Below are positions 8,157 through 55,872 of a stretch of DNA of 64,000 nucleotides, one piece after another. The notes under the pieces were generated by a model. That model was given only the letters and a program-made list of their open reading frames with translations, had not been told where the DNA came from and ran no database searches. Source of the stretch: Bifidobacterium pullorum DSM 20433 (GTDB lineage Bacteria > Actinomycetota > Actinomycetes > Actinomycetales > Bifidobacteriaceae); assembly GCF_000771405.1 (NCBI RefSeq), contig NZ_JDUI01000011.1:1-64000 (forward strand), written 5' to 3'. A program made the position numbers and the translations under genes. Position 1 is the first letter of the stretch, and every line of letters starts with the position of its first letter.

Positions 8157-8313
8157 CGCAGGTTTCCTTCTTCTCACAGTCCGTAAAACTCCGCGTGCGA
8201 TTCTACCGCCGTCCGCGTCACGCCGCGCCCAACGGCGTTATGCGATACGGGAACGTCCGTCGTCGCGGTTCCGTTGCGATCCGGTACCACGGCGACGGTA
8301 TGGCAACCGACTG

Positions 8314-14881: not shown

Positions 14882-15583
14882 ATGAGCGTTCTCGACCGTT
14901 TTGAGAAAAGCGTGGAAAGCGCGGTCAACGGAGTGTTCTCCAAGTTCGGGTCCAAGGACCTGCAGCCCGTCGACCTCTCCAGCGCCCTTGAGCGCGAGAT
15001 CGACGCCGAGGCCATGCCGGTCGGCCGCGACCGCACCGTGGCGCCGAACGAGTACCGGTTCAAGCTGAGCACCCCGGACTTCGACCGCATCGAACAGTGG
15101 GGCTCCGAGGCCCTGGCCAACGAGCTGGCCGACAACCTCACGCAGTATGCCAAGAGCCAGCACTACGCCTTCGTCGGGCCTGTGGTGGTGATCTTCGAGG
15201 AGGATCTCGAACTCAACAAGGGCAGCTTCAACCTGAGCTCCGAGTCCGTGCGGGGCAACGCCGTGCCCGTGACCACCGACACCCAGACCGAGGACAGCCC
15301 CGTGCTCGAGGTCAACGGCAACCAGTATCTGCTGACCAAGCCGCAGACCGTCATCGGCCGTGGCTCGGGCTGCGACATCGTCATCGACGATCCGGGCATC
15401 TCGCGCAAGCATCTGGAGATCGACATCACCGACAACGGTGTGATCGCCCGTGACCTGGGATCGACCAACGGCACGTACGTGGAAGGCCATCAGGTGCCGG
15501 CGGCCACGCTGCTGGACGGCAACACCATCACCATCGGCCGCACCCGCATCCTGTATTGGGCCTCCTCTCAGGAAACGGAGTAG
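14882..15583 (+). CDS. fhaA: FHA domain protein FhaA
   Basis: A 233-residue protein with an N-terminal DUF3662 domain (starting VLDRFEKSVESAVNGVFSKF) and a C-terminal forkhead-associated domain, whose phosphothreonine-binding residues lie in IGRGSGCDIVI, GISRKHLEI and LGSTNGTYV. It recruits phosphorylated partners of the PknA/PknB kinases at the cell envelope. It is the first gene of the conserved actinobacterial operon ending in pknB. AGAAAGG supports the ATG at 14882 over the GTG two codons earlier. Confidence 0.9.
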   Translation: MSVLDRFEKSVESAVNGVFSKFGSKDLQPVDLSSALEREIDAEAMPVGRDRTVAPNEYRFKLSTPDFDRIEQWGSEALANELADNLTQYAKSQHYAFVGPVVVIFEEDLELNKGSFNLSSESVRGNAVPVTTDTQTEDSPVLEVNGNQYLLTKPQTVIGRGSGCDIVIDDPGISRKHLEIDITDNGVIARDLGSTNGTYVEGHQVPAATLLDGNTITIGRTRILYWASSQETE

Positions 15584-15611
15584 GCCGCCGCCCAGGAGCC
15601 ACAATCTGCCT

Positions 15612-16136
15612 ATGCTCACCGAACTGACATTCGCGATCCTCAAGTACGGGTTCCTCGTCCTGCTTTGGGTGTTCGTCTGGTTGACGGTGCGCTCGCTGCA
15701 TAAGGACATCGAGACGCTCAGTCCGCGCAAGTCGCGCGCGCATCGCCGTAAGACACGTCTGGCCCGCAAGGCGGCGGAGTCGCCCACGCCCGTTTCGGTC
15801 GTGCCCGCGCCTGCGACCAACGAGATGCCCGCCGCGGCCGATACGCCGACGCTGCTGGTCATCATCGACGGCCCGTTGGCCGGCACCTCGGTGCCGTTGA
15901 GCAACGGCGCCATCACGTTGGGCCGTGCCGCGTCGAATTCCGTGGTGCTCGACGATGAATTCGTGTCCTCCCACCATGCCCGCGTCTATTTCGACGCCAT
16001 GTCCGGGCAGTGGGCGATCGAGGATCTCGGCAGCACGAACGGCACCGTGGTCAACCAGCAGCGCATCGCCTCGCCGACAGCCCTCGCGCCGCGCGTTCCC
16101 GTGCGCATCGGCGCCACCACCTTCGAATTGAGGTGA
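15612..16136 (+). CDS. fhaB: FHA domain protein FhaB (FipA-like)
   Basis: A 174-residue protein: one N-terminal membrane helix (ILKYGFLVLLWVFVWLTV), a basic linker, and a C-terminal FHA domain with LGRAASNSVVL, SSHHARVYF and LGSTNGTVVN. In actinobacteria it is phosphorylated by PknA/PknB and links them to division and cell-wall synthesis. It lies 28 bp after fhaA and its end overlaps the possible upstream GTG of pstP. Confidence 0.88.
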   Translation: MLTELTFAILKYGFLVLLWVFVWLTVRSLHKDIETLSPRKSRAHRRKTRLARKAAESPTPVSVVPAPATNEMPAAADTPTLLVIIDGPLAGTSVPLSNGAITLGRAASNSVVLDDEFVSSHHARVYFDAMSGQWAIEDLGSTNGTVVNQQRIASPTALAPRVPVRIGATTFELR

Positions 16137-16141
16137 CCACT

Positions 16142-17716
16142 GTGCCTTCCGACACCCCGCAGTCGCTGTTCCTGTATTCCACGACGGTTTCCGACGTCGG
16201 CACCGTCCGCAGCAACAACCAGGATTCGTCGTTCGCCGGCGAGCATCTCGCCGCGATCTGCGACGGCATGGGCGGCCATGCCGGCGGCGACACGGCTTCC
16301 ACGATTGCGATCCGGTCCCTGGCCCACATCGAGCGCGACGACGCCTCGCTCGGCGTGCAGGAATGCGCCACGATGATGGAGACCTCGGTGCTGGCCGCGC
16401 ATGACGCCATCGTCGGCAAGGCCAAGCGCGAGCGCAAGCTCGCCGGCATGGGTACGACCGTCACCGCCATCGCCCTGGTCGAAGGCTATTGGGTGCTCGC
16501 GCATATCGGAGATTCCCGCGCCTATCTGCTACGTGACGGGCATCTGGTTCGGATGACGCAGGACCACAGCTACGTGCAGCACCTCATCGACACCGGCCGC
16601 ATCACCGAGGCGGAGGCGCGCAACCATCCGCAGCGCAATGTGGTGATGCGCGTGCTGGGTGATTTCGACATCGACCCCAGGCCGGACATCGCGGTGCGGC
16701 AGGCCCACGCGGCCGACCGCTGGCTGCTGTGTTCGGACGGCCTGTGCGGCGTGCTGGAGGATTCCACGATCGAGGAGACGCTCGCGACGGTCTCCGATCA
16801 GGGCGAGTGCGCCCAGCAGCTGGTGTCGATGGCGTTGCGCGCGGGCAGCACCGACAACGTCACCGCCGTGATCGCCGACGCCACGCTCGCCTTGGATGTG
16901 GACGCGTTCGACCTGCCGCACCAGACACCGTTGGTCGGAGGCGCGGCCAGCGCCAGCCTCGAACCGATCGCCGACATCATCAACGAGCCGGTGTCCACCG
17001 CGCCGGCGTTGCGCAGCGGCAAGGCGTCGCCGGCGCAGCGTGCCGCGGCGCTGGCTCAGGAGACCCGTACCGATCCGGTGTCGTACACCGCGCAGCCGTC
17101 CACGGTGCGCGAGGAGACCGGCGACCTGCAGGAGCCGGACACCGGCGAGATCCCCGTGGTGCAGAAGCGCGACGGGCGGCTTACCGCTGATCCCAACGAC
17201 CCCGACGTGGCCAAGGCGATCCACCACGAGCACGACAAGCAGGAGCAGCTGTCGCACGCCAAGGTGATCCGTTCGCGGATCCTGATCGTCGTGGGCGTCG
17301 TCGCGTTGTTGGCGGCGCTGGCGGGGACCGCGGCCGTCGGCTACCTGTGGAGCCAGACCCGTTACTATCTGGGTATCGACGACGGCCAGGTGGCCATCTA
17401 TCAGGGCGTGCCCACGAATCTGTTCGGTTTCGAGCTGTCGCATCCGGTCGAGGACACCGGCATCAGCGTCGCCGACCTGCCGCAGAACTGGCACACCCAG
17501 CTTGACCAGGGCATCATGGTCGATGACATCGACGCGGCCAGGGACCACGCCGATCTGATCGAACGGGAGAGCCGGCATCTCGAGCAGCAGCGCAACGACC
17601 GCGCCGACGGCGAGAAGACCGACGCCGCGGACGACAACGACTCCTCCGACAACAACGACTCCTCCGACAATGCCGACACCTCCAACGATGCCGACGCGGA
17701 TCAGGAAGGACGGTGA
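16142..17716 (+). CDS. pstP: PP2C-type Ser/Thr protein phosphatase PstP
   Basis: A 524-residue membrane-anchored phosphatase that reverses PknA/PknB phosphorylation. The catalytic PP2C domain occupies about residues 12-245, with metal ligands in SNNQDS and CDGMGGHAGGD. A linker, one membrane helix (ILIVVGVVALLAALAGTAAV) and a short extracellular part follow. The C terminus is a low-complexity run rich in Asp, Asn and Ser. GTG at 16142 has GAGGTG six bases upstream; a GTG three codons earlier overlaps the fhaB stop but lacks a ribosome site. Confidence 0.9.
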   Translation: MPSDTPQSLFLYSTTVSDVGTVRSNNQDSSFAGEHLAAICDGMGGHAGGDTASTIAIRSLAHIERDDASLGVQECATMMETSVLAAHDAIVGKAKRERKLAGMGTTVTAIALVEGYWVLAHIGDSRAYLLRDGHLVRMTQDHSYVQHLIDTGRITEAEARNHPQRNVVMRVLGDFDIDPRPDIAVRQAHAADRWLLCSDGLCGVLEDSTIEETLATVSDQGECAQQLVSMALRAGSTDNVTAVIADATLALDVDAFDLPHQTPLVGGAASASLEPIADIINEPVSTAPALRSGKASPAQRAAALAQETRTDPVSYTAQPSTVREETGDLQEPDTGEIPVVQKRDGRLTADPNDPDVAKAIHHEHDKQEQLSHAKVIRSRILIVVGVVALLAALAGTAAVGYLWSQTRYYLGIDDGQVAIYQGVPTNLFGFELSHPVEDTGISVADLPQNWHTQLDQGIMVDDIDAARDHADLIERESRHLEQQRNDRADGEKTDAADDNDSSDNNDSSDNADTSNDADADQEGR

Positions 17717-41828: not shown

Positions 41829-42581
41829 CTAGATAATATATTTATCCAGTCGATCAATCCACTCATTTGAATGCAGTAATGCGTCCTCACAATGTCCCTT
41901 TCCTTTTGAACAAATAGTTATGGAATTTTTATAATTTTTCTTGATATATTTAGCTACGTTTCTAAAAACAAATTCATTTATCTTTCCACCATAAAAATAA
42001 ATAATCTGTGTATTGGGCGTATCAATATCTGAAGGAAGTTTAAATTGTCCAACTGCATATAAATATTTTTTTATGGTTTCATCTGATATATTATCTAACA
42101 GCTCTAAAAACACATCCAACATATCTTCTGTTACCATTGTATTTATTGCGTTTCGTACCACTTTTTGATTTCGTTCTCTTGCTTTTTTTGTTATAGACAA
42201 GTACTGTTTTATAAGCATTTGAGTCATATATTTTCCAAATGGTAAAAGTGGTGAACTTTCTAAAATAACCTTTTCAAAGGTAAGCCTTTTGTTTTTCCAT
42301 AAATACGATGTTAAAACTCCACCCATGCTCATTCCATAAATTGCGTATATATGGTTAATAGATTTTGATATACAATAATTTTCTATCTCTTTTGCAGTAT
42401 CATCAAAGGAATTGAACTCGGACTTCTCCTGCACATCATGCCCCGGCAAAATTGGCACAAGAATATGATAGTTCTCTTTATAATGCTCTATATAATCAAT
42501 CCATATTTGATATGGACTTTCAAAACCATGAACAAGCATTATTGTTGGATTATTTGTATTGCCATATTCCAAAATACGCAT
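41829..42581 (-). CDS. Alpha/beta hydrolase, island gene 1
   Basis: A 250-residue protein. IMLVHGFESPY is the oxyanion segment, GMSMGGV the nucleophile elbow and GKGHCEDAL the likely histidine region. Codons are strongly A+T-rich, unlike the host. AGAGGGGG precedes the ATG. It begins MRILEYGNTNNP, similar to MNYVEYGKGNSN of the next gene, so the two are ancient tandem paralogues. The substrate is unknown; it would be a cytoplasmic esterase, thioesterase or amidase. Confidence 0.75.
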   Translation of the reverse strand: MRILEYGNTNNPTIMLVHGFESPYQIWIDYIEHYKENYHILVPILPGHDVQEKSEFNSFDDTAKEIENYCISKSINHIYAIYGMSMGGVLTSYLWKNKRLTFEKVILESSPLLPFGKYMTQMLIKQYLSITKKARERNQKVVRNAINTMVTEDMLDVFLELLDNISDETIKKYLYAVGQFKLPSDIDTPNTQIIYFYGGKINEFVFRNVAKYIKKNYKNSITICSKGKGHCEDALLHSNEWIDRLDKYII

Positions 42582-42615
42582 TTTAAGCCCCCTCTTTACT
42601 TACACAAATTGGAAT

Positions 42616-43362
42616 TTATCTTTGTTCTATTATTTCTAATAGTCTTCTTACATAATCACCTGCATGGTTTATTGAAAACTCTCCATGGTACATATTAGGA
42701 AGAACTTGTATAGAACTATTCTGTAGTTTTTTATGAATTAGTTCTGCCGACTTTTTCATTGAGTGATTTTCTTTTTCTCCGACAAAAATATGAACTATTG
42801 CTTCGCTCTCTTCAATCCCATCTTTTAAGGAATATAATGAGTTTTCCTGTAAAAAAGCAATCATATCGCTCTTTGTTATTGCACAAGTATCTTTGTAATA
42901 ATTATCAAACAAATGCTGCTTTATTCGTAATGATTTGAATTGTAATTTTGAAAACCATTTATACTTTATCAAACCATAACAACTCCCAAACGCAGGCTTA
43001 ATCATAAAATATGTGAATTTTGAAGGTATTACAAGTGCGCTTTCCACTATTGCATACTTACATATATCCTTACGTTGAGATAAAATTTCAAGTAAAATCT
43101 GTCCTCCAAGTGATAGTCCTCCAATCAATAAAACGGAACCATCCAGTTTATCATTTATAAATTCTATAATCTCTAAAGCATTATTTTCTATCGTTGTAAA
43201 TCGTTTATCACTTCCTGCATGACCGTCTAATACAGGTATAATTATATGATAATTCGTTTGTAGCATTTCAGCAATTTCTTTGTAATTCCACCATGACAAA
43301 CCACCTCCATGTAAGAGGATAATTACATTACTATTTCCTTTCCCATATTCAACATAGTTCAA
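42616..43362 (-). CDS. Alpha/beta hydrolase, island gene 2
   Basis: A 248-residue paralogue of the neighbouring island gene. VIILLHGGGLSWWN is the oxyanion segment, GGLSLGGQ the nucleophile elbow, and PNMYHGEFSINH the probable histidine region. The start is taken as TTG at 43362 because GAGGTG lies six bases before it and the N terminus then aligns with gene 1; a GTG three codons upstream is the alternative. It is A+T-rich, with the same direction as gene 1 and 34 bp from it. Confidence 0.72.
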   Translation of the reverse strand: MNYVEYGKGNSNVIILLHGGGLSWWNYKEIAEMLQTNYHIIIPVLDGHAGSDKRFTTIENNALEIIEFINDKLDGSVLLIGGLSLGGQILLEILSQRKDICKYAIVESALVIPSKFTYFMIKPAFGSCYGLIKYKWFSKLQFKSLRIKQHLFDNYYKDTCAITKSDMIAFLQENSLYSLKDGIEESEAIVHIFVGEKENHSMKKSAELIHKKLQNSSIQVLPNMYHGEFSINHAGDYVRRLLEIIEQR

Positions 43363-43486
43363 CCTTTTCACCTCGCTGTAAAATTCAAATTTGTCTTTTC
43401 CTCATTATACCTTTTCTGTCAGCCATTGAGAAGATATTTTCATTATTCCTGATAAAAATATCTGCAGCTACTAAATAAGAAAGCGT

Positions 43487-43751: not shown

Positions 43752-43789
43752 GGGGCGCTGACGGCCGCACGATCGGTCGTCAGCGCCCC
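43752..43789 (-). terminator. Terminator of the GH13 glucosidase gene, now overlapping its stop
   Basis: GGGGCGCTGACG pairs perfectly over 12 bp with CGTCAGCGCCCC. The present stop codon (43780-43782) lies inside the right arm; the ancestral stop inferred at 43799-43801 lies just before it. Confidence 0.75.
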
Positions 43790-45456
43790 GTCACCAGGTC
43801 AGGCCAACCAGACGGCGGTTTCCGGAGGCAACACCTCCGCACCCACCCTTCATCCGACGAGACCAGCACGGTGGCATCCTCGGGCAGCGGCACACTGCGC
43901 TCGCCCGAGAAGTTCACCATCACGGTCATGCCGGAAGGCAGCCGCCAGGCCAGCAGGTCGGGTTCCTCGGCGGACAGGCCGTCCAGCCAGGTCATTGCGG
44001 TGTCCGCCCCGCGGGCCACCCAGGTCCGGCGCAACGCCACGGCCTCACGGTACAGCTCCAGCGTGGAGCCGTCGACCCCGTCCTGGGTGTCGGCCGCATA
44101 GTCGGCGAACCAGGCGGGCTGGGGCAGCCATGCGGCACCGGTGCCGTTGAACCCGAACGACGGGCCCTCCGCCGACCACGGCAGCGGCACGCGGCAGCCG
44201 TCCCGCCCCTTGAACCGGTGTCCGCTGCGTTCCCAGTTCGGGTCCTGCAGCTGGTCGGGCGTCAGCTCCAGATCCTCGGGCAGGCCGAGCTCCTCGCCTT
44301 GGTAGATGAACGCGGTGCCGGGCAGACCGAGCATGATCAGCGCGGCCGCACGGGCGCGACGCCATGCCGAGGCGGCGTCGATGACCGGATCAGTCCCGTT
44401 CGACGTCACCCACGCCTCCACGTCCGCACCGGCCGGCACCCCGAGCCGGGAGGCGACGCGCGGCACATCGTGGTTGCCGAGCACCCAGGTGGGCGCGGTG
44501 GCCGCCTGGCGGGCGCAATCGACGGTGCGTTCGATGATCGACCGGTAATCGTCGCGGTCCCAGACCGCCTTCTCCAACGAGAAATCGAAGACGGCACCCA
44601 GCTCGTCCTGCCGCGCGTACTGGAAGATGCGCGGGGTGAACGGCTGCCAGGACTCGCCGATCGCGTACTTGGCAGGCACATACTCGTTGAACAGTTCGCG
44701 CCAGGCACGGTAGATCGTGTGCACCTCGTCGCGGTCCCAGATCGGGTCGGAGCCGTCGGCGGCCTGCGGGCCCATGACGTTCGGGTCCGGGCGGTCGCGC
44801 AACGGGTCGCGCAGGTCCTTGGCCAGGCCGTGCGAAACGTCGATGCGGAACCCGTCCACGCCCTTGTCGCACCAGAACCGCAGCACGCGCAGGAACTCCT
44901 CGCGGACCTCCGGGTTATCCCAGTTCAGGTCCGGCTGTTCCTTGGCGAACAGGTGCAGGTAGTACCAGCCGTCGCCGCAGGGCTCCCACGCGGAGCCGCC
45001 GAAGTTGCTCAGCCAGTTGGTCGGCGGCAGTTCGCCGTGGTCGCCGCGGCCGCGCCGGAACACGTACCGGTCGCGTTCCGGGGAGCCGGGGGCGGCGGCG
45101 ATCGCCTCCTGGAACCACCGGTGCCGCTCCGACGTGTGGTTCGGGACGATGTCCACGATGACGCGGATGCCGCGGGCGTGCGCCTCGGCGACGAGCCGGT
45201 CGAAGTCGTCCATCGTGCCGAATCGGGGGTCGACGGCGCAGTAGTCGGCCACGTCGTACCCGCCGTCGGCCTGCGGCGAGGGGTAGAACGGGGAGAGCCA
45301 GACGGCGTCCACGCCGAGGGCGTTCAGATAATCGAGACGGGCGATGACGCCGTTCAGATCGCCGTCGCCGTCGCCGTCGCAGTCGGCGAAGGACCGCGGG
45401 TAGATCTGGTAGATGACGGCGTCGCGCCACCAGTCTCGTTGTTCGTCGATGGTCAT
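43780..45456 (-). CDS. Alpha-glucosidase, GH13, with frameshifted C terminus
   Basis: A 558-residue GH13 enzyme with VDIVPNHTS, nucleophile Asp in GFRIDVSHG, acid/base Glu in IGESWQ and GNHDVPR intact. After VLVSSDEG near the end the frame reads WVRRCCLRKPPSGWPDLVTG, but the +1 alternative frame gives EVLPPETAVWLA and a stop, the normal ending of this family. A one-base deletion is therefore likely; it replaces the last dozen residues and moves the stop into the terminator. The catalytic core is complete, so activity may survive. The ATG at 45456 has GAGG seven bases upstream. It is the last gene of a transporter operon. Confidence 0.82.
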   Translation of the reverse strand: MTIDEQRDWWRDAVIYQIYPRSFADCDGDGDGDLNGVIARLDYLNALGVDAVWLSPFYPSPQADGGYDVADYCAVDPRFGTMDDFDRLVAEAHARGIRVIVDIVPNHTSERHRWFQEAIAAAPGSPERDRYVFRRGRGDHGELPPTNWLSNFGGSAWEPCGDGWYYLHLFAKEQPDLNWDNPEVREEFLRVLRFWCDKGVDGFRIDVSHGLAKDLRDPLRDRPDPNVMGPQAADGSDPIWDRDEVHTIYRAWRELFNEYVPAKYAIGESWQPFTPRIFQYARQDELGAVFDFSLEKAVWDRDDYRSIIERTVDCARQAATAPTWVLGNHDVPRVASRLGVPAGADVEAWVTSNGTDPVIDAASAWRRARAAALIMLGLPGTAFIYQGEELGLPEDLELTPDQLQDPNWERSGHRFKGRDGCRVPLPWSAEGPSFGFNGTGAAWLPQPAWFADYAADTQDGVDGSTLELYREAVALRRTWVARGADTAMTWLDGLSAEEPDLLAWRLPSGMTVMVNFSGERSVPLPEDATVLVSSDEGWVRRCCLRKPPSGWPDLVTGR

Positions 45457-45535
45457 AGTCATGCCTCACAATTCACGTTGCGTTGCGGCCATCGAACGGG
45501 GATGCCGACGGCCGCAACACTTGGGCGGGATGCGG

Positions 45536-46360
45536 TCAGCCCTTGACGGAGCCTGCCAGCATCGCGCGGATGAAGTACCGCTGCAGGATGATGAACAGGA
45601 TCATCGTCGGCGCCATGATAAGCAGCGCGCCCGCATTGAGCAGCACCACGTCGGTCTGGTACTGGCCCACGAAGGACTGCAGCGCGCCGGCCATCGTGCG
45701 CTTGTTCGGATCGTTGATGAGCACAACCGCCAGCAGGAACTGGTTCCAGGTGGACAGGAACGTCAGGATGCCGAGCGAGGAGAGCGCGGGCAGCGCCAAC
45801 GGCAGCTGGATCGACACGAAGGTGCGCCAGTGGCCGGCGCCATCGATGGAGGCGGCCTCCATCAGGTCGCGCGGCATCTGCTCGAAGTGCGAACGCATCC
45901 ACATGATGCCGAACGGCATGTTCAGGCCGATCATCGGCAGGATGAGCGCCCAACGGGTGTTGAGGATGCCCATCGCGTCCACCTCGTAGTACAGCGGGGT
46001 GACGAGCGTTTCGAACGGGATCGTCAGACCGATCATGAACAGCAGCATGATCAGGCCGCGGCCCGGCACCTTGAGCTGGGCCATGGCGTAACCGCCGAGC
46101 GCGGAGAACAGGATCACGGCCGGCACCACGCCGATCACCAGAATCAGGCTGGACTTGAGCAGCGGGGTGATGTTCGCGATGTTCCACGCGTCGATGAAGT
46201 TCTCCCAATGCGGGGCGGTGGTGAACTGGATGCCGGTGGGCATCGAGCCCTGCGGCTGGAGGGCCGCGGAGAGCATCGAGATGAACGGGATGATCGAGAA
46301 GATGATCGTCAGGGCGAGCACGAGGTTGCCGATCGTACGCACGGACATGGACTGCTTCAT
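45536..46360 (-). CDS. Carbohydrate ABC transporter permease (MalG-like)
   Basis: A 274-residue inner-membrane permease with six helices. The cytoplasmic EAA loop reads EAASIDGAGHWRTFVSIQLP, the ATPase contact. It follows the other permease by one base. It appears intact, but its partner permease and binding protein are damaged. Its ATPase would be a shared MsiK/UgpC-like protein encoded elsewhere, as usual in bifidobacteria. The substrate is probably an alpha-glucoside, judging from the glucosidase downstream. Confidence 0.85.
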   Translation of the reverse strand: MKQSMSVRTIGNLVLALTIIFSIIPFISMLSAALQPQGSMPTGIQFTTAPHWENFIDAWNIANITPLLKSSLILVIGVVPAVILFSALGGYAMAQLKVPGRGLIMLLFMIGLTIPFETLVTPLYYEVDAMGILNTRWALILPMIGLNMPFGIMWMRSHFEQMPRDLMEAASIDGAGHWRTFVSIQLPLALPALSSLGILTFLSTWNQFLLAVVLINDPNKRTMAGALQSFVGQYQTDVVLLNAGALLIMAPTMILFIILQRYFIRAMLAGSVKG

Positions 46361-46361
46361 C

Positions 46362-47304
46362 TCACTCCCCCTTACCCTGGACGAGCCGCTGCAGCGGGCC
46401 GACGACCAGCAGCACCAGCACCATCAGCACGATGGCGAGCGCCGAGGCCAGGCCGACGCGGCTCTGCGTGAACGCGAGCTGGTAGACCTGCACGCCGGGG
46501 ACCATGGTCGAGTAGCCGGGGCCGCCCTGCGTGGACATGAACACCACGTCGAAGCTGGCGAGCGCGGCCACGACGGTCATGGTCAGGCAGACGCTGAGCT
46601 GGCCGCGCAGACCGGGGATGGTGATGGCGAACAGCTGCCGCCACCAGCCGGCGCCGTCGAGGCTGGCCGCCTCGTACAGCGAGACGTCGATCGCGCCGAT
46701 GCCGCTCAGCAGCAGCACGACGCAGAAGCCGAGCTGGAGCCAGAAGCCGATGATGCCGACCGCGGACAGGGCCGTGGCCTGATCGCCGAGCCAGGTGTGG
46801 GTGGCGCCGTCGAGGCCGAGTCCGCGCAGGATCTGGTTGACGGTGCCGTCGTCGGCGAGCATCCAGGTCCAGGCCACGCCGGCCGCGGCGCCGGGGATGA
46901 CGCGGGGCAGGAACAGGCAGACCTGGGCGAAGGTGCTGGTGGCCTTGTGCTTGATGTCCTTGATCAGCGCGGCGGTGATCAGGCCGAGGACGATCGGCAG
47001 GATCGAGAAGAAGATGATGAGGAAGAACGCGTGGCCGATGCTGCCGATGAGCTTGGGATCGGTGAACACCTTGATGTAGTTGTCGATGCCGACGAAGGTG
47101 CTGGCGTCGATGCCGTTCCAGTCGTAGAACGAGTACCAGGCGGTCTGGATGATCGGCCACAGTTCGAACACCGCGTAGAAGATCAGCGCGGGTGCGAGGA
47201 AGAGGTATCCGGCGATCACCGTCGAGGGGCGGCGGCGATCGGCCCTTCCGGCCCGCGCCCTTACGCGGGCCGGAAGGGGTGTTGGTGGGCTTGGACTTGG
47301 CCAT
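46362..47304 (-). pseudogene. Carbohydrate ABC transporter permease (MalF-like), N-terminal frameshift
   Basis: From codon GTG at 47219 the frame encodes a normal 285-residue permease (VIAGYLFLAPALIFYAVFEL onward, EAA loop EAASLDGAGWWRQLFAITIP). The expected basic N terminus MAKSKPTNTPSGPRKGAGRKG is in another frame, starting with ATG at 47304. Joining them needs a shift near 47235-47243, where the reading should continue DRRRPSTVIAGYL. The internal GTG has no ribosome site. The gene is probably inactive unless it is read through a programmed shift or the call is a sequencing error. Confidence 0.7.
47243..47278. repeat. Perfect 15-bp inverted repeat at the permease frameshift
   Basis: CCCTTCCGGCCCGCG and CGCGGGCCGGAAGGG are separated by CCCTTA, inside the permease N-terminal codons and ending at the point where the frame must change. 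Such a strong GC hairpin favours slippage, replication error or sequencing error. Confidence 0.8.
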
Positions 47305-47310
47305 GGCGAA

Positions 47311-48357
47311 CTACTTTCCGAGTTCCTCTTCGTACGCGGACTGCACGATACCGGGGAATTCCGCGGCGTCGAGGGAGCCGTCGAGCAGCAGCTGGAAGTT
47401 CGGGATCAGGGTGCTGGACTGGATGCCGGCGGTCGCGTTGTTGATGAAGTCGGTGGTGGCGCCATCGCTCATCAGGTCGCCGTAGACGGTGAGCATCTCG
47501 GTGACCAGCGCGTCGCCGCTGGTGGGCAGTTCGCCGTCGCCGGCCGGGGCGTAGCCGCTGTTGTCGATGACGATCTGGCGGGCCTCCTCGGTGGTCAGGT
47601 AGTCGAGGAAGGCCGCGGCGGCGTTCTTGTTCTTGGCGTTGGCCGGGATGCCGAAGGCGGAGCCGGCGTTCAGGGCGGCGGTGGCCGGGTCGGATTCGGT
47701 CGTGCCCGGGTAGGAGGTGAAGCCGGCGGCGTCACCCATGGCCTCGGAGACGGAGGCGACGTTCCAGTTGCCGCTGGGGAAGAACAGGCCTTCGCCGGCG
47801 GTGAAGCGGCCGAGCGCGGTGGAGGCGTCGACGGCGTTCACGTCGCTGGGCAGGTAGCCGGCCTCGGCCCACGACTGCAGCGTTTCGGCCGCGGTCTTGG
47901 CCGCGTCGGTGTCGAAGGACGCGCCGTCGTTCTGGACAATCCAGCTCTGGACGGCGTCGGCACCGCCGGCGTTGACCATCAGCGCCTGGTAGATGAAGGA
48001 GGCGCCGCCGTCCTTGCCGGGGAGCATCATCGGCAGGATGCCGGCGTCCTTGGCCTTGGCCATGGCGTCCTCCAGCTCCTCCATGGACTTGGGGGCCTCG
48101 GTCAGGCCGATCTTGGCGCCCAGGTCCTTGTTCCAGAACAGGCCGGTCATCGACAGGCTGCTCGGCACGGCGTACAGGTCGCCGTCGGCGCCAATCTGGC
48201 CCTCATCATCCACGCGGTAGATGGTGGTCTGCGCGTCCGGCAGCTCCCAGCCATAGGCGTCGGCGTATTCCTCAAGATTGGTCAGATGGTTGCCGCGCAC
48301 GGCTGAGCCGATGTCGGTGACGCGGGCGATGTCCGGGGTGTCGGACGAGGAGATGAT
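47311..48357 (-). pseudogene. Sugar-binding protein of the ABC importer, N terminus deleted
   Basis: The family similarity runs from SSSDTPDIARVTD to the end (SAYEEELGK), about 347 codons. A signal peptide, lipobox and the first 70-80 residues are absent. Upstream of 48357 the minus-strand frame merely runs antisense to a LacI gene body. The protein could not be exported as a lipoprotein. It is the first gene of the operon with permeases and glucosidase, and its promoter is lost too. Confidence 0.8.
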
Positions 48358-49084
48358 GCGCGGACCGTTCTGCGAGCTGACGCTGTGGGACGGCGCCGGC
48401 CTGAAGACCCTGGACGACGCGCTGATCGCCGGATTCGCGCTCAACGAGGACGAGAAGCGGGCGCTGATGGGCATGGCCATGCCCATCGTCTCCGTCAACG
48501 CCTCCGACCTGACCTACTGCCAGATGTCCATCGCCATCGACGACGAGAGCTCCGAGGCCCAGATCGTGCGATATCTGGCCGCCCTCGGACATCGCAGGTT
48601 CTGCTACATCGGCCGCGCGGACCCGATCTCCGGTGACGATTGGGGCTTCGATGCCCGCCCCCGCGGCTATCAGGATGAAATCGCCGAACTGGGGCTTCAG
48701 GATTGCGGGATGATCTTCATCGACGTCAACGACCGGAACGCCATCCGGCAGGCTGTGGCCTCGCTGGTCTCCATGCCCGACCGTCCGACCGCCATCTGCA
48801 CCTGGGCGGATCAGCTGGCGCTGCCGGTCATCCACGACCTGGAGGCGATGGGGCTGCGCGTGCCCGGGGACATCTCCGTATTCGGATTCGACGGTTCGGA
48901 TATGGCCGCCGCGGTCAACCTGAGCACGATGGCGCAGCCTGCAAGGGAGATCGGACGGATGGCGGCCCGGCATGCGTTGAACCTGGTTGACGGCGGCACG
49001 CCGGACGAGGCGACCATCGTCGTGCCGACCACGCTGGAACCCGGCGGCACCGCCGGCCCGGCACGCATGCCGGACAATAACTGA
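48353..49084 (+). pseudogene. LacI family regulator, DNA-binding domain deleted
   Basis: The remaining ~240 codons encode the ligand-binding part of a LacI/GalR regulator: IVRYLAALGHRRFCYIG, RPTAICTWADQLALPVIHDL, then VPGDISVFGFDGSDMAA and STMAQPAREIGRMAA. The N-terminal helix-turn-helix, hinge and about 100 residues are missing, so it cannot bind DNA. It abuts the beheaded binding-protein gene head-to-head. The pair lost both 5' ends and the shared promoter region in one deletion. A bidirectional hairpin follows. Confidence 0.8.
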
Positions 49085-49086
49085 AA

Positions 49087-49117
49087 AGGGTGTTGGCGGG
49101 TTAACCGCCAACACCCT
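49087..49117. terminator. Bidirectional terminator between lacI remnant and second importer
   Basis: AGGGTGTTGGCGG pairs perfectly with CCGCCAACACCCT around GTTAA, between two convergent genes. Confidence 0.8.
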
Positions 49118-49136
49118 ATAAGCACAGGGCTGTCCT

Positions 49137-50006
49137 TTACTTGACCGCGCCCCTCATTACGCCACTGATCACCCACCTCTGGGCGAAGACGTACACGATG
49201 AGCACCGGGGCCATCGCCATCAGGTAGGAGGCGAACGCCATCGGATAGTTCGACGTGAACTGGCTCTGGAACACGTACTGCGCCAGCGGGATCGTCTGGT
49301 TGCCCTGATCGGTCAGCGTGATCAACGGCAGCAGGAAGTCGTTCCACGCCCACAGCACGGTCAGGATGGCGATCGTGGAGTTGATCGGGCCCATCAGCGG
49401 GAAGATGATGGTCCAGAAGATGCGCCAGGTGCTGGCGCCATCCACGCGGGCGGCCTCCTCCAGCGACACCGGAATCGAGCGGATGAAGCCGATGGCGATG
49501 AACAGGTTGGAGCCCAGGCCCAGGATGGTGTACAACAGCATCAGACCGAGCTGGTTGTCCAGGTGCAGCGAACCCATCTGGTGCGCGATCGGCAGCATGA
49601 TGACGGTGAACGGCACGAACATCATGGCCAGGAAGAAGTAGTACAGGAAGCGGAAGAACCGCTTGTCCATGTTCCTGGCCACCGCGTACGCCACGAACGT
49701 ATTCGTCAGCAGCGTCAGGCAGACGGCCACCACGGTGATGATCGCCGAGTTGAGCGCCGCCTTCGGGTAGTCGATGTAGTTCCACGCGTCGGCGAAGTTA
49801 TGCCATTCCCAGGTGGTCGGCAGGCTGAACGTGCCGGCCTCGGCCGGCGTCTTCAGCGCGGTGACGATCGTGAAGTACAGCGGGATGAGGATGGTCAGCG
49901 AGAACACGGCCACCACCGCGGTCAGCCACCAGTTGATCTTGTGGTCCTTGCGGAAGCCCTCCCGCTTGGTGTATGCCCTCTTGGGCGACTTCGTTGTGCT
50001 GGTCAT
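49137..50006 (-). CDS. Carbohydrate ABC transporter permease (MalG-like), second importer
   Basis: A 289-residue permease with six helices and the EAA loop EAARVDGASTWRIFWTIIFP. Its start overlaps the stop of the upstream permease gene. It carries an N-terminal basic tail (KSPKRAYTKREGFRKDHK). With the genes at 50006-52234 it makes an intact importer. The adjacent GH36 alpha-galactosidase points to raffinose, melibiose or stachyose as substrate. Confidence 0.87.
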   Translation of the reverse strand: MTSTTKSPKRAYTKREGFRKDHKINWWLTAVVAVFSLTILIPLYFTIVTALKTPAEAGTFSLPTTWEWHNFADAWNYIDYPKAALNSAIITVVAVCLTLLTNTFVAYAVARNMDKRFFRFLYYFFLAMMFVPFTVIMLPIAHQMGSLHLDNQLGLMLLYTILGLGSNLFIAIGFIRSIPVSLEEAARVDGASTWRIFWTIIFPLMGPINSTIAILTVLWAWNDFLLPLITLTDQGNQTIPLAQYVFQSQFTSNYPMAFASYLMAMAPVLIVYVFAQRWVISGVMRGAVK

Positions 50007-50905
50007 CAGATCTGCTCCTTGCCGCTGAAGAACTTCAACTGGATGAATGCGAGGATGGCCAGGACGATGAAGAACGTCACGGCGTTGGCCATCTGGTACG
50101 AGTACTCGCCGTTACCCAGACCGTTCGAGAAGATGAGGTACGAAACCGTTTCGGTCTTGGAATCCGGGCCGCCACCGGTCAGGGCCACGACCTGGTCGAA
50201 CATGCTCAGCGAGTTCTTCAGGCTGAGCACCATGTTGATCGTGAAGAACGGGCCGATCAGCGGGAACGTGATCTGCCAGAACCTCTGCCAGGCGTTCACG
50301 CCGTCGATGTCGGCCGCCTCATAGACCTCGGTGTCGATGGTCTGCAGGCCGGCCAGGTACAGCAGCGTGGAGTAGGCCACGCCCTGCCAGATCGACAGGA
50401 ACGCGATCGGGAACCACGCCAGGTCCGGGTTGGTCAGCAGCGACGTGGACAGCCAGTCGATGCCGAGCGCCTGACCGATCTCGGGGATCGGGACCATGAA
50501 GATGTACTTGAACACGTAGCCGATGACCAGCACGGCCAGCATGTACGGTACGAAGAAGAGCGCGCGGAACCCGTTCTTGAACGCGATCTTCGAGTTGAGC
50601 AGCACCGCCAGGAACAATCCGAGGAAGTTCTGCCCGACGGTGATCACCACCGCCATCACGATGGTGAAGATGTACGCGTTGCCCACGCGGCTGTCGGAGA
50701 ACATCGCGATGAAGTTCTTCAGACCGATGAAGTCCCAGGTGCCGTATCCCTGCGAGTTGGTGAGCGAGTAGAACGCACCCTGCAGGAACGGCCAGTACAG
50801 GAAGATCGCGACCAGGATCGCCGCGGGCACGGTCATCCAGTAGAACGCCGGATCGACCTTGCGGGTGGAGTACCGGCTGACCTTGTTCTTTGTTGCCTTT
50901 GCCAT
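50006..50905 (-). CDS. Carbohydrate ABC transporter permease (MalF-like), second importer
   Basis: A 299-residue permease with six helices; the EAA-type loop is EAADIDGVNAWQRFWQITFP. GGTAGGAG precedes the ATG. It is nine bases downstream of the binding-protein gene and coupled to the next permease by overlap. No frameshift is seen, in contrast to the damaged importer upstream. Confidence 0.87.
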   Translation of the reverse strand: MAKATKNKVSRYSTRKVDPAFYWMTVPAAILVAIFLYWPFLQGAFYSLTNSQGYGTWDFIGLKNFIAMFSDSRVGNAYIFTIVMAVVITVGQNFLGLFLAVLLNSKIAFKNGFRALFFVPYMLAVLVIGYVFKYIFMVPIPEIGQALGIDWLSTSLLTNPDLAWFPIAFLSIWQGVAYSTLLYLAGLQTIDTEVYEAADIDGVNAWQRFWQITFPLIGPFFTINMVLSLKNSLSMFDQVVALTGGGPDSKTETVSYLIFSNGLGNGEYSYQMANAVTFFIVLAILAFIQLKFFSGKEQI

Positions 50906-50914
50906 TGTTGTCTC

Positions 50915-52234
50915 CTACCTGAAGTTACGGGCCTGGACCTTGTCGTACTCGGTCTGCATCGAGTTGAGGAACTGGTCGACGTTGCCGGTGTTCACCAGCG
51001 TCTGCAGGAAGCCGGCGATGTTGATCGACGAGGACATGTAGTGGTCGCAGAAGTCGGTGATCCGGTTCTCCTCGAAGAACGGCAGCACGGTCTCCAGCGC
51101 CGGTTCGCCCACGTAGGTCTCCTTGAGCGGGCCGAATGCGGACTGCGCATCGCAGTAGTCCTCGAGCGTCTTCTCCTCCATCAGGAAGTCCACGAACTCG
51201 CGGGCCTCGTCGTAGTGGTCGGTGTGCGCGCCGATGGTCAGCATCACGTCGTCGCCGGCGGTCAGCTTCTGCTCGGCGGGGTCGTCGGTGGCCGGCATCT
51301 GCGCGAAGACCAGCTCCATATCCGGGTTGATCAGCCGCACCTGCGGGATGGCGTAGGTGCCCAGCGGCAGGGTGGCCGCCTTGCCGTTGGCGAAGTCCTG
51401 CGTGGCCTGCTGGTAGGTGACCGACGGATTGGTCTGCGTGTAGTTCTGGAAGATCTCGACGAGCTTCTCGCTCACCGGCCGCCACAGGTCACCGAAGGTC
51501 TTCGTGCCGTCCTTGATGTTCTGGTATTCGCTCTCCGGCACCAGTGTGGAGTTCAGCGACGACAGCGGCGCCTGCAGGGTCCATGCCTCGGCCATCGACG
51601 CCTCCACCGGGGTGATGCCGGCGTCCTTGAACGTCTGGAGCGCGTCCAGATACTCCGACCAGGTGGTGGGGGGGTTGTACGGGTCCAGACCGACCGACTC
51701 CCACAGCTCCACGTTGATGATGTATCCGGAGGCGTTGCCCGCGTACGGGATCGCGTACAGGCGCTTGCCGTCCGGGTCGTCGGTCTGCACGAGGTTCTTG
51801 GCGATCTCGACCATGCCCTCGTTCAGCTCGTCGACGATCGGATCGTCGGTGAAATCATGGAACACGCCGGCCTCGGCCAACAGACCGTAGTTGATGTCGC
51901 CGTTGATGGTGATCACGTCCGGCTCGCGGTCCTTGACCAGACGGGTGCGCAGATCGGTGACCGCGTTCGGGGAGTTGTTCACCGTGATCTTGATATTCGG
52001 ATGCGTCTCCTCGAATTCCCGCGCCTTCTGCGTGAACCAGTCGCTGGCTTCGGTCTTGTACTGGAAGAAATCAATCGTCACCGTGCCAGCATCAGCCGCA
52101 CCACATCCCGCAAGGGATGCACCCAACGCGACCGCAACGGCGGCTCCGGCGAGGCGACGCGGCCAGCGCGATGCCGGGTGTTGCCGTCCCGGCTCCGCGG
52201 CGGACCACCGCATCGTACGGAAAACAGGTTGCAT
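50915..52234 (-). CDS. Extracellular sugar-binding lipoprotein
   Basis: A 439-residue solute-binding protein. The N terminus has an arginine-rich stretch, a hydrophobic core and the lipobox LAGCG, so it is anchored outside by a lipid-modified cysteine. [17 protein letters not shown] begins the mature domain, and [28 protein letters not shown] and [17 protein letters not shown] are usual landmarks. AAAGGAG precedes the ATG. It is the first gene of the importer operon and divergent from its likely ROK regulator. Confidence 0.88.
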
Positions 52235-52366
52235 TATCGACTCCTTTATCCTCATGTCCACGGCCAGGGCATCGTTACCCTGTCCCGTGTTCAACGGTGC
52301 CACCCCGGCTTTTTCATTCCCAGTCTTGGCGTGCCCACCACCAATCCGCAACAAAATGGACCGTCA

Positions 52367-52387
52367 TTTCTTTCAGACGGAAAGAAA
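52367..52387. promoter_or_regulatory. Inverted-repeat operator between importer and ROK gene
   Basis: TTTCTTTC-AGACG-GAAAGAAA is a perfect 8-bp inverted repeat. A TATACT -10 box for the ROK gene starts six bases downstream (52393), so the palindrome covers the -35/spacer region. It is the best candidate site for the ROK protein to control itself and the divergent importer. Confidence 0.6.
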
Positions 52388-52427
52388 ATACCTATACTGG
52401 TAATCAGCACACACGTCAGGGAGATCT

Positions 52428-53642
52428 ATGGACACCAACCTCAGCCGCACAGACCGAACCGACCTCCACGTCATGGAGTTCCCCCACTGGTTCCACCGGT
52501 CGGACCACACCCACCGCGTCGCCGCCGCCATCCTCAAGCACGGGCCGATCGCCCGGACCACGCTGGCCCAGGACCTGGGGCTGTCCCAAGGCGCACTGTC
52601 GCGCATCACCAGCGACCTGATCTACGACGGCGTCGTCGAGGAGTCCTCCACGGAACCCGACGGAGCCGCCGAGCCACGCGAGCGGCGCGGCAGACCGCAG
52701 ACCGCGCTGCGCATCCGTCAGAACGCGCGCACCTTCGTCGGCGTCAAGATCAACGCGCACCTGGCCACCGCGGTTGCCATCGACGCGCGCAGCATCATCG
52801 TCTCACGCCCGCACAGCCACGCGATCGCAGAACAGACGCCTGACGTCCTGGCTCATACCGTCGCCGAACTGGTGACCGCATGCACGGCCGATCTGGCGGA
52901 TGCGCACCTGCCAACGCCGACGGCCATCGGCATCGCCGTCGGCGGCCATATCGTAGACGACACCATCGTGACCTTCGCGCCGTTCCTGCACTGGGAGGGG
53001 CGGATACCGTTCGCCGCACTCGTCGAGCAGTCGACCGGACTGCCCACGCGCCTGTACAACGACATCGACTCGCTGCTCGTCGACGCCTGCTGGTTCGGCG
53101 GCGGCGTGGGGTATGACAACTTCGCGATCCTCACCATCGGGACCGGCATCGGCTATTCGCTGGCCTTCCACGGCACGCCGATCAACTACCCCGACAAGAC
53201 ATACGGTCTGGCCGGACATATCCTGATCGACCCGGACGGGCCCCGCTGCGTGTCGGGGCACCGCGGCTGCGCACAATGCCTGACCAGCGACTCCATTGCG
53301 GAGGAATACTCGCAGATGATCGGCAAGGCCGTCACCTTCGACGACTTCGGACGCGATGCCCGGGCGGGACGGGCACTGGCCACCAGACTGGTGAACCGCA
53401 CCTGTTTCCGGCTGGGCACGCTGATCGCCGCCATCGCCAATCTGGCCATGCCGGACAAGGTGATGATCGCCGGCGAGTCCGCGTTCATCGCCCGCTTGGG
53501 CACCGACGCCATCCGCGACGGCATCAACAACTACCGGCACAACCAGAGCGCCCCGGTGGTCTTCGAGATCATCGACCACGATTGGGCGCTCTGGGCCAAG
53601 GCGGCGGCCAGCCGCGTCCTCATCCGCTACATCGAACGCTGA
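52428..53642 (+). CDS. ROK family transcriptional regulator
   Basis: A 404-residue sugar-responsive repressor. The N-terminal winged helix-turn-helix is RVAAAILKHGPIARTTLAQD, then LGLSQGALSRITSDL. The ROK domain follows, with the glucokinase-like loop ILTIGTGIGYSL and a zinc-binding AGH plus a CVSGHRGCAQC cysteine cluster. CAGGGAGA precedes the ATG. Divergence from the importer and closeness to the alpha-galactosidase suggest local control by galactoside. Confidence 0.87.
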   Translation: MDTNLSRTDRTDLHVMEFPHWFHRSDHTHRVAAAILKHGPIARTTLAQDLGLSQGALSRITSDLIYDGVVEESSTEPDGAAEPRERRGRPQTALRIRQNARTFVGVKINAHLATAVAIDARSIIVSRPHSHAIAEQTPDVLAHTVAELVTACTADLADAHLPTPTAIGIAVGGHIVDDTIVTFAPFLHWEGRIPFAALVEQSTGLPTRLYNDIDSLLVDACWFGGGVGYDNFAILTIGTGIGYSLAFHGTPINYPDKTYGLAGHILIDPDGPRCVSGHRGCAQCLTSDSIAEEYSQMIGKAVTFDDFGRDARAGRALATRLVNRTCFRLGTLIAAIANLAMPDKVMIAGESAFIARLGTDAIRDGINNYRHNQSAPVVFEIIDHDWALWAKAAASRVLIRYIER

Positions 53643-53655
53643 CGCGGTCGCCGCG

Positions 53656-55872
53656 TCACTGCTTCACGGCAGTGAACAACACGGCCTGCGCGGGATGCAG
53701 GGACGGCGGACGGATGCCGTAGGTCTGCAGCGCGCGGCCGGTCAGGCACACACCGTCGGCGTTCCACCAGCCGAGCGGCGACTGGCCATTGGTGATGTCG
53801 AGGCTCTGCCCGTCGGTGACGTTGAGCTTCAACTCGCGGTTCATGTCCAGCGGCATCACCCGATACACCGCATCCGGATCCAAGCCGGGCAGACGCACCG
53901 GAGCGGCCGGATAGGTCTGCGATGTGGTCAGCTGGGTGAACCGGTACACGGCGCGGGCCTTGTCGGCGCTGACCACGCCGTCCAGACGGACCGCGGGATC
54001 GCCTTCGTCGCCATGCACCACCGTGCCGGTGGCGAAATCGGCGCGATGGCGCTTGTACTCGGCCACCCATACGCCCAGCTTGTCCAGGTCGCCCTGCGGC
54101 TCCTTCAGCAGGTTCCACTCAATGCCCATATGCCCGAAGAACGCCATGGCCATGCGCATCTCCTGGCTCGTGCTGCGATGCGTGGAATGCGCGGGGCTGG
54201 CACCCACATGCTCGCCGATCATCTCAGGCGGCACCAGCAGCGACGTGTAGCGCTGGATGTCGGCACGCTCCACCGGGTCCACGCAGTCGGAGGCCCAGAT
54301 GCGGTCCGCCACCTCCAGGATGCCCAGATCCACGCGACCGCCGCCCGACGAGCAGCTCTCAATCTCCAAGCCGGGGTGAGCGGCCTTCAGATCGCGGAAG
54401 ATGCGGTAGACGGCCAGCGTCTGCTCATGCACGGCGGGACGCGCGTTCTCCGGCGAGAACGCCTCGGTGACCAGCTTGTTGTGATCCCACTTGATATAGT
54501 CGATGCCCAATTCTTCGACCAGCTTGTCCATGCAGTCGTACACGTAGGCGTAGGCCTCCGGGTTGGTCAGATCGACGACCTGCTGGCAACGGCCCTGCAT
54601 CGGCAGGCGGTTGGCCGTGGGCTTGAGCACCCAATCCGGATGGTTGCGGAACATCTCGGAATCCGGATTCACCATCTCCGGCTCGAACCACAGGCCGAAC
54701 TGCATGCCCTTGCCATGCACGTAATCGGCGAGCGCCTTGAGGCTCTTCGGGCCTTCGGGCCATACCGACTGGGCGATCTGCCAGTCGCCCAGGCCGGAGG
54801 TGTCGTCGCGACGGGAGCCGAACCAGCCGTCGTCCACCACGAAACGCTCCACGCCGCTGTCGGCGGCCTTGTCGGCGAGCGCGACCAGCGTGTCATAGTT
54901 CTGGTCGAAGTACACGGCCTCCCAGGTGTTGAGGATCACCGGACGCGGCTTGATGGCCATCTCGGGATGGCAGGAGCGCACATACCGGTGGAAGCGGGAG
55001 GCGACCTCGTTCAGGCCGTCGCCGTACGCGCCATACACCCACGGCGTCTCGTATGCGGCGTTGTGGGGCAACGTCACTTCGCCGCCGAACAGGATCTCCC
55101 CGCCGCCGATCACGGGCTGCGTATAGGGCAGACGTTCGGCGGACAGCAGGCTGTTGCCGCTCCATGCCACATGTGTGGAGTACACCTCACCGTGTTCGAA
55201 TCCGAATCCGGGGGCGCCCACTGTCAGCAGCAGCGAGGCGTCGAAGTCGGGGCGGCCGGCCACATAGGTACGCTGGAACCGGCCGATGGTCAGCGGCTGG
55301 CGCTGCGGGGAGCGCTCGCGCAGGTGGTGGCCGGTGGTGGTCAGGATCTCGGTGGCCCAGCCGGGGACGGCGAAGCCGAGTTCGACCTTGCCGATTTCCA
55401 GTTCGCCGTAGGCCAGGTTGCGGATGGCGGCACGCTGGCGGAGCAGACCGGAGGGGTCGAGCTCCATCGTCCAGGTCAAGGCCACCTGCTGTTCGGCGTC
55501 CTCGGCGGTCACGGTGACGGCGGGGCGATCGCCTTCGGTCAATGTGGTGTCGGTCACGGTGAACCGGCAGAACACCTCCACGCCGTCGCGGCGCAGCGCC
55601 AGGCGCGGTTCGCCGATCCAAGCCTCCGCCTGAGTCGGCAGCACGCTCGGCCACGGCGTGTAATCGAGCGCGCCGGACACGCGCTGGGGGCGCAGGGCGT
55701 CGGCGGCGTCCACGACCGTTTCAGGGTGAGTCATGGGGCGACCCCAGTACACAAGCCGCGGCAGTTCCCCTTCGGGGAACGCCAACGCAAACGCCACGCC
55801 GGCTTCGGGCTGCTCCGCATACACCGCAACCACGGCATCGGATTCATTGGACAATGCAACAATGCGCGCCAT
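53656..55872 (-). CDS. Alpha-galactosidase, GH36
   Basis: A 738-residue intracellular alpha-galactosidase removing terminal alpha-1,6-galactose from raffinose-family sugars and melibiose. The nucleophile is Asp in YIKWDHNK and the acid/base Asp in WASDCVDPVER. FVVDDGWFGSRRDDTSGLGD and GLWFEPEMVNPDS are further signatures of the bacterial GH36 group. AAGGAG precedes the ATG. It converges on the ROK gene and completes the second utilisation cluster. Confidence 0.93.
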   Translation of the reverse strand: MARIVALSNESDAVVAVYAEQPEAGVAFALAFPEGELPRLVYWGRPMTHPETVVDAADALRPQRVSGALDYTPWPSVLPTQAEAWIGEPRLALRRDGVEVFCRFTVTDTTLTEGDRPAVTVTAEDAEQQVALTWTMELDPSGLLRQRAAIRNLAYGELEIGKVELGFAVPGWATEILTTTGHHLRERSPQRQPLTIGRFQRTYVAGRPDFDASLLLTVGAPGFGFEHGEVYSTHVAWSGNSLLSAERLPYTQPVIGGGEILFGGEVTLPHNAAYETPWVYGAYGDGLNEVASRFHRYVRSCHPEMAIKPRPVILNTWEAVYFDQNYDTLVALADKAADSGVERFVVDDGWFGSRRDDTSGLGDWQIAQSVWPEGPKSLKALADYVHGKGMQFGLWFEPEMVNPDSEMFRNHPDWVLKPTANRLPMQGRCQQVVDLTNPEAYAYVYDCMDKLVEELGIDYIKWDHNKLVTEAFSPENARPAVHEQTLAVYRIFRDLKAAHPGLEIESCSSGGGRVDLGILEVADRIWASDCVDPVERADIQRYTSLLVPPEMIGEHVGASPAHSTHRSTSQEMRMAMAFFGHMGIEWNLLKEPQGDLDKLGVWVAEYKRHRADFATGTVVHGDEGDPAVRLDGVVSADKARAVYRFTQLTTSQTYPAAPVRLPGLDPDAVYRVMPLDMNRELKLNVTDGQSLDITNGQSPLGWWNADGVCLTGRALQTYGIRPPSLHPAQAVLFTAVKQ

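Follow-up and report, generated by a model that had tools for sequence, protein, structure and literature searches.

The closest described system is the pair of adjacent carbohydrate clusters, raf and mel, of Bifidobacterium breve UCC2003, which were reportedly described by O'Connell et al. in 2014. In B. breve, a ROK-controlled raffinose cluster adjoins a LacI-controlled melezitose cluster (PMC7889515, PMC4746261), and melezitose use differs between B. breve strains (PMC4007704). The locus studied here resembles UCC2003 in that a sugar cluster containing a ROK regulator and GH36 lies next to another containing a LacI-type regulator and GH13, but differs in that its mel-type LacI and solute-binding protein (SBP) genes are beheaded. 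The locus of B. callitrichos DSM 23973 (L023/L029) shares the order GH36, ROK, second SBP, two permeases, LacI, SBP, two permeases and GH13; unlike those of the window, its LacI and SBP genes are full-length and divergent, with a control region between them.

The window, the 64,000-base stretch that was analysed, belongs to a 2.1 Mb Bifidobacterium assembly of 38 contigs that is 99.96% complete. According to the ORF list and Pfam, the gene order round the joint was GH13, two permeases, the SBP fragment and the LacI fragment, followed beyond the LacI fragment by two permeases, a second SBP, a ROK regulator and GH36. This gene content and order is that of a mel-type cluster beside a raf-type cluster; B. 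callitrichos and a further relative (G052) are arranged identically. The features of the locus are:

43780..45462, minus strand: GH13 alpha-glucosidase-like gene, with a probable frameshift at about 43843-43854
45536..46360, minus strand: second permease, MalG-like, intact (all 274 residues aligned without interruption)
46362..47219, minus strand: first permease, MalF-like; the only start in the frame is a GTG at 47219
47243..47278, minus strand: strong hairpin between the SBP stop and the permease, found by folding
47311..48372, minus strand: beheaded mel-type SBP gene, 353 codons from QNGPR to a TAG stop, without a signal peptide
48373..48381, no strand: junction 1, nine letters compatible with either flank (plus strand, ELT codons; minus strand, VSS codons)
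48373..48436, plus strand: inverted SBP N-terminal piece, ELTLWDGAGLKTLDDALIAGF, identified by base counts, own-genome search and genus search
48410..48436, no strand: junction 2, which fits both SBP (DALIAGF) and LacI (DALIxxGF)
48437..49084, plus strand: LacI-family gene without its start, coding for the effector domain but for no helix-turn-helix, ending in TGA
49087..49117, minus strand: terminator-like hairpin separating LacI from the raf cluster (two such sites against 0.8 expected)
49137..55872: raf-like cluster (two permeases, SBP, ROK regulator and GH36), intact by alignment to relative G057 and by Pfam

The initial annotation held that both genes at the joint lack their 5' parts, and the Pfam matches bear this out. 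The SBP fragment matched SBP_bac_1 (E 1.6e-24) from profile position 37 to 306 of 307, and SBP_bac_8 as well; the fold region of SBP_bac_1 was present and the lipoprotein signal peptide and N-terminus were absent. The LacI fragment matched Peripla_BP_3 (E 3.5e-32, positions 1-166 of 167) and Peripla_BP_1, and these were the only Pfam families found, with no helix-turn-helix. The positions given for the two ends fared less well. SBP similarity had been said to stop near 48357; the minus-strand coding continues through QNGPR to 48372, and from the Q codon onward it aligned with relatives at 55-60% in tblastn. LacI similarity had been said to begin at 48357 as well: a plus-strand LacI fragment does meet the SBP fragment, but its onset lies around 48404-48437, where the inverted SBP piece has yet to end.

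The LacI fragment showed 70.5% identity to the LacI of G057 and 52-56% to LacI-a of six other relatives. All 11 LacI ORFs examined in relatives (from at most ten genomes) were whole and started with the DNA-binding domain. In G057 (L024, 5086-8900), the whole orthologous LacI is divergent from another SBP/permease/GH13 operon that is not mel-type; the operon paired with LacI at this site thus seems to differ from one species to another.

A comparison with strains carrying the full divergent pair had been proposed earlier, and five relatives carry the intact SBP/LacI pair with its control region: B. saguinibicoloris, B. callitrichos, B. subtile, G102 and G052. The SBP N-terminus was present in all five. 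Between the SBP Q codon and the LacI GF codons lie 980-1108 bases in these relatives vs. 64 in the window, a net loss of 916-1044 bases. Lost from the locus were the signal-peptide end of the SBP, the control region and the DNA-binding domain of LacI; the SBP and LacI fragments adjoin with nothing of the control region between them, as the initial annotation had stated.

The lost parts were sought elsewhere in the same genome. Residues 1-50 of a relative's SBP, the signal-peptide end, found no match there. The whole SBP of the relative matched four places, three of them inside the window. The LacI N-terminus query matched 18 places with a best identity of 53%, each in an open frame of at least 212 residues, and these are read as other LacI-type genes. 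Altogether, the SBP and LacI N-terminus queries recognised no displaced SBP-start or LacI N-terminal fragment elsewhere in the genome.

The 64 bases between the two fragments are SBP N-terminal coding sequence turned round, beyond chance. On the plus strand they code ELTLWDGAGLKTLDDALIAGF, the start of the mature SBP in relatives, and read ELTLWDGAGLK..ALIAGF. In an ungapped count, the piece matched SBP-A of B. saguinibicoloris at 57 of 63 bases and the SBP genes of eight other relatives at 43-53 of 63; the nucleotide match to one relative was 91% over 65 bases (E 1.4e-18). When a relative's whole SBP was searched against the window's own genome, residues 51-74 matched on the plus strand (48371-48442), back to back with residues 88-440 on the minus strand (47323-48387). 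A genus search with the inverted stretch gave some match in 52 of 112 genomes, the window's own included; in five other genomes the stretch lay next to an SBP-C match, at six places altogether, always on the strand opposite to that of the window.

This piece contradicts the earlier proposal that one deletion explains the whole locus. A single clean deletion would behead both genes and remove the control region, all of which is seen, but it does not alter the orientation of either flank and therefore cannot flip a segment; with 64 inverted bases of SBP coding at the joint, this explanation can hardly be right. At a minimum, an inversion plus a deletion, or else a templated inverted insertion, is needed.

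Our leading reading, to which we give about an even chance, is that a LacI-controlled mel-type ABC importer beside a raf-type cluster was recently inactivated by a compound rearrangement, a micro-inversion followed by a deletion. In the first step, about 110 bases of the SBP gene would have been inverted between short inverted repeats at the ELT and VSS codons. The inversion would have brought the DALIAGF codons of the SBP into the same direction as the DALIxxGF codons of LacI, and slippage between these direct repeats would then have deleted roughly 0.9 kb. In favour of this route, both joints fall in letters that fit both sides. At junction 2, GACGCGCTGATCG and GG.TTC are compatible with SBP ALIAGF as well as with LacI DALIxxGF. 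At junction 1, the letters are a possible inverted repeat of a putative ancestral sequence: the codons before QNGPR are VSS in the window and VSG, VSA, TSQ or TSA in relatives. Against the route, this repeat, read from the window alone, is absent from the compared letters of B. saguinibicoloris and four other relatives. Moreover, chance alone often produces inverted repeats of 12-30 bases in genes as GC-rich as these (2-15 pairs per region); the short repeats would permit the rearrangement but do not prove it. A phase-variable switch flanked by inverted repeats was also considered and rejected: the control region is gone, and no conserved inverted repeat linking SBP and LacI was found among the five longest pairs in each of four relatives scanned.

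The same two joints could come from a single replication or repair event, in which the polymerase changes template where the SBP gene folds back on itself, copies 64 bases of the opposite strand and switches again to LacI. One event would suffice, the inverted piece is short and local, and comparable events have been reported in eukaryotes; the end product alone cannot tell this route from inversion followed by deletion, and the repeats at both joints suit the two steps as well. We regard it as possible, though clearly less probable than the two-step route. More generally, the locus is like described deletions with inverted or templated insertions or micro-inversions in having a local inverted piece at a deletion joint and short joint repeats. 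It differs from that class in its host: the papers found concern mainly human and yeast work, and a small literature search gave no bacterial case of the same deletion-plus-inverted-piece kind.

Alternatively, a larger segment between SBP and LacI, about 0.9 kb, could have been inverted before the LacI N-terminus, the control region and the SBP start were deleted. This would equally place the SBP N-terminus before the LacI C-terminus in the observed orientation, with the DALI..GF similarity serving as the inverted repeat. It would need a second joint exactly inside the SBP gene at 48373, a place with no special reason to be chosen, and this makes it an unlikely course of events.

The inverted piece may be the gene's own N-terminus or, judging from its similarities, that of a lost second SBP copy. 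B. saguinibicoloris (L022) and G044 (L025) each have two SBP and two LacI genes in the cluster. The piece matched one SBP-A gene at 57 of 63 bases, the other SBP-A gene at 49 and SBP-B genes at 48-53, and in the tree the SBP-C part of the window was sister to the SBP-B group with full support on a long branch. A further point against the two-step reading is that, with the piece nearest to SBP-A and the SBP-C part grouped with SBP-B, a second copy may be its source; in that case the loss would be about 4.7-5.0 kb.

The recent inactivation proposed under the two-step reading is in line with further probable lesions in the mel-type operon, with none of such kind in the raf cluster, whose five proteins gave single-piece, nearly end-to-end alignments with G057, the closest relative of the raf half of the window. 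In GH13, the conserved C-terminal PPETAVWLA is found in the next frame and the last codons are out of frame, which points to a probable frameshift at about 43843-43854. The GTG start of the MalF-like permease at 47219 has no clear ribosome site, and the ATG at 47304 opens a different frame. A certain MalF frameshift was considered and dropped, since the SBP-MalF interval of relatives also folds into a hairpin; for the same reason the ATG at 47304 is perhaps not the true MalF start, and from the sequence the SBP-MalF interval may be an altered intergenic region. Errors of annotation or sequencing could account for what is seen in MalF and in GH13.

Frame breaks were screened with 476 ORFs of relatives over 50,684 of the 64,000 window bases, a screen that is blind to breaks near gene ends such as those of GH13 and MalF. 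Six places were flagged. Two were rejected as an ORF extending upstream of a DUF3073 or rhomboid gene (Pfam), and three were judged from their position alone, two of them over permease genes and one at 8160. At the sixth, 15323-16554, a G057 ORF without a Pfam family matched in three frames; it is tentatively taken as an antisense shadow, the other reading being a broken gene.

The pairwise pN/pS of the window permeases against relatives was 0.31-0.53 for MalF and 0.29-0.41 for MalG, vs. 0.05-0.16 and 0.06-0.21 among the relatives; LacI was left out of the pN/pS analysis and was assessed by identity and the relative-rate test only. The higher permease values had suggested relaxed selection and long-standing decay, but this was rejected on the relative-rate test with an outgroup, in which the window was faster at p<0.05 in 0 of 30 comparisons and the relative was faster in four. 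The nearest to an acceleration in the window was LacI against G057 (14 to 6, p 0.074). The higher values are better read as the window being an earlier branch and, with no acceleration in the window branch, the loss therefore looks recent.

Unaccelerated coding sequence is also what still-working genes would show, as expected if the joint were an assembly or amplification chimera and the intact pair were present in the genome. Whole-genome amplification is known to give inverted fold-back chimeras, and the assembly is in 38 contigs. Against this, the 99.96% complete assembly showed neither the SBP nor this LacI N-terminus recognisably a second time, and the same operon carries the two further probable lesions while the frame-break screen of 50,684 bases revealed nothing convincing elsewhere. 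A chimera is accordingly judged improbable.

With the two-step rearrangement still the preferred account, its predicted consequence is that SBP and repressor should both be inactive. The SBP would not be exported because its signal-peptide end is lost, and LacI would be unable to bind DNA because its DNA-binding domain is lost. The native promoter for the permeases and GH13 would be gone as well, hence no import by the mel-type system would be expected. A promoter-like consensus that may not fit Bifidobacterium promoters found no sites in 47100-49300 (0.2 expected). The initial annotation had the importer silenced, which is likely given an SBP without its signal-peptide end and a missing promoter region, and the repressor would be destroyed too.

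A stop-free plus-strand frame does run from an ATG at 48356, just after GAGGAG; its 242 codons span the inverted SBP piece and continue into the LacI effector domain. That the joint thereby made a new gene, for a sugar-sensing protein free of DNA binding, would be very surprising. Overall, the locus has the look of ordinary gene loss that left an unusual scar: a loss of sugar uptake in a gut bacterium in which regulator and binding protein were lost at one place, and a scar that bears the marks of both an inversion and a loss. The consequence beyond the locus is small. At joints of two truncated genes, turned-round pieces should be looked for before a single deletion is claimed.

Two minor observations concern the rest of the mel-type operon. 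The hairpin between SBP and MalF was strong in the window and in six relatives (L022, L023 and L025-L028) with little sequence conserved, and it may set the ratio of SBP to permease. Adjoining the operon at 41829-43371 are two alpha/beta-hydrolase-like ORFs with a G+C content visibly below, by eye, that of the surrounding genes; these were possibly acquired.
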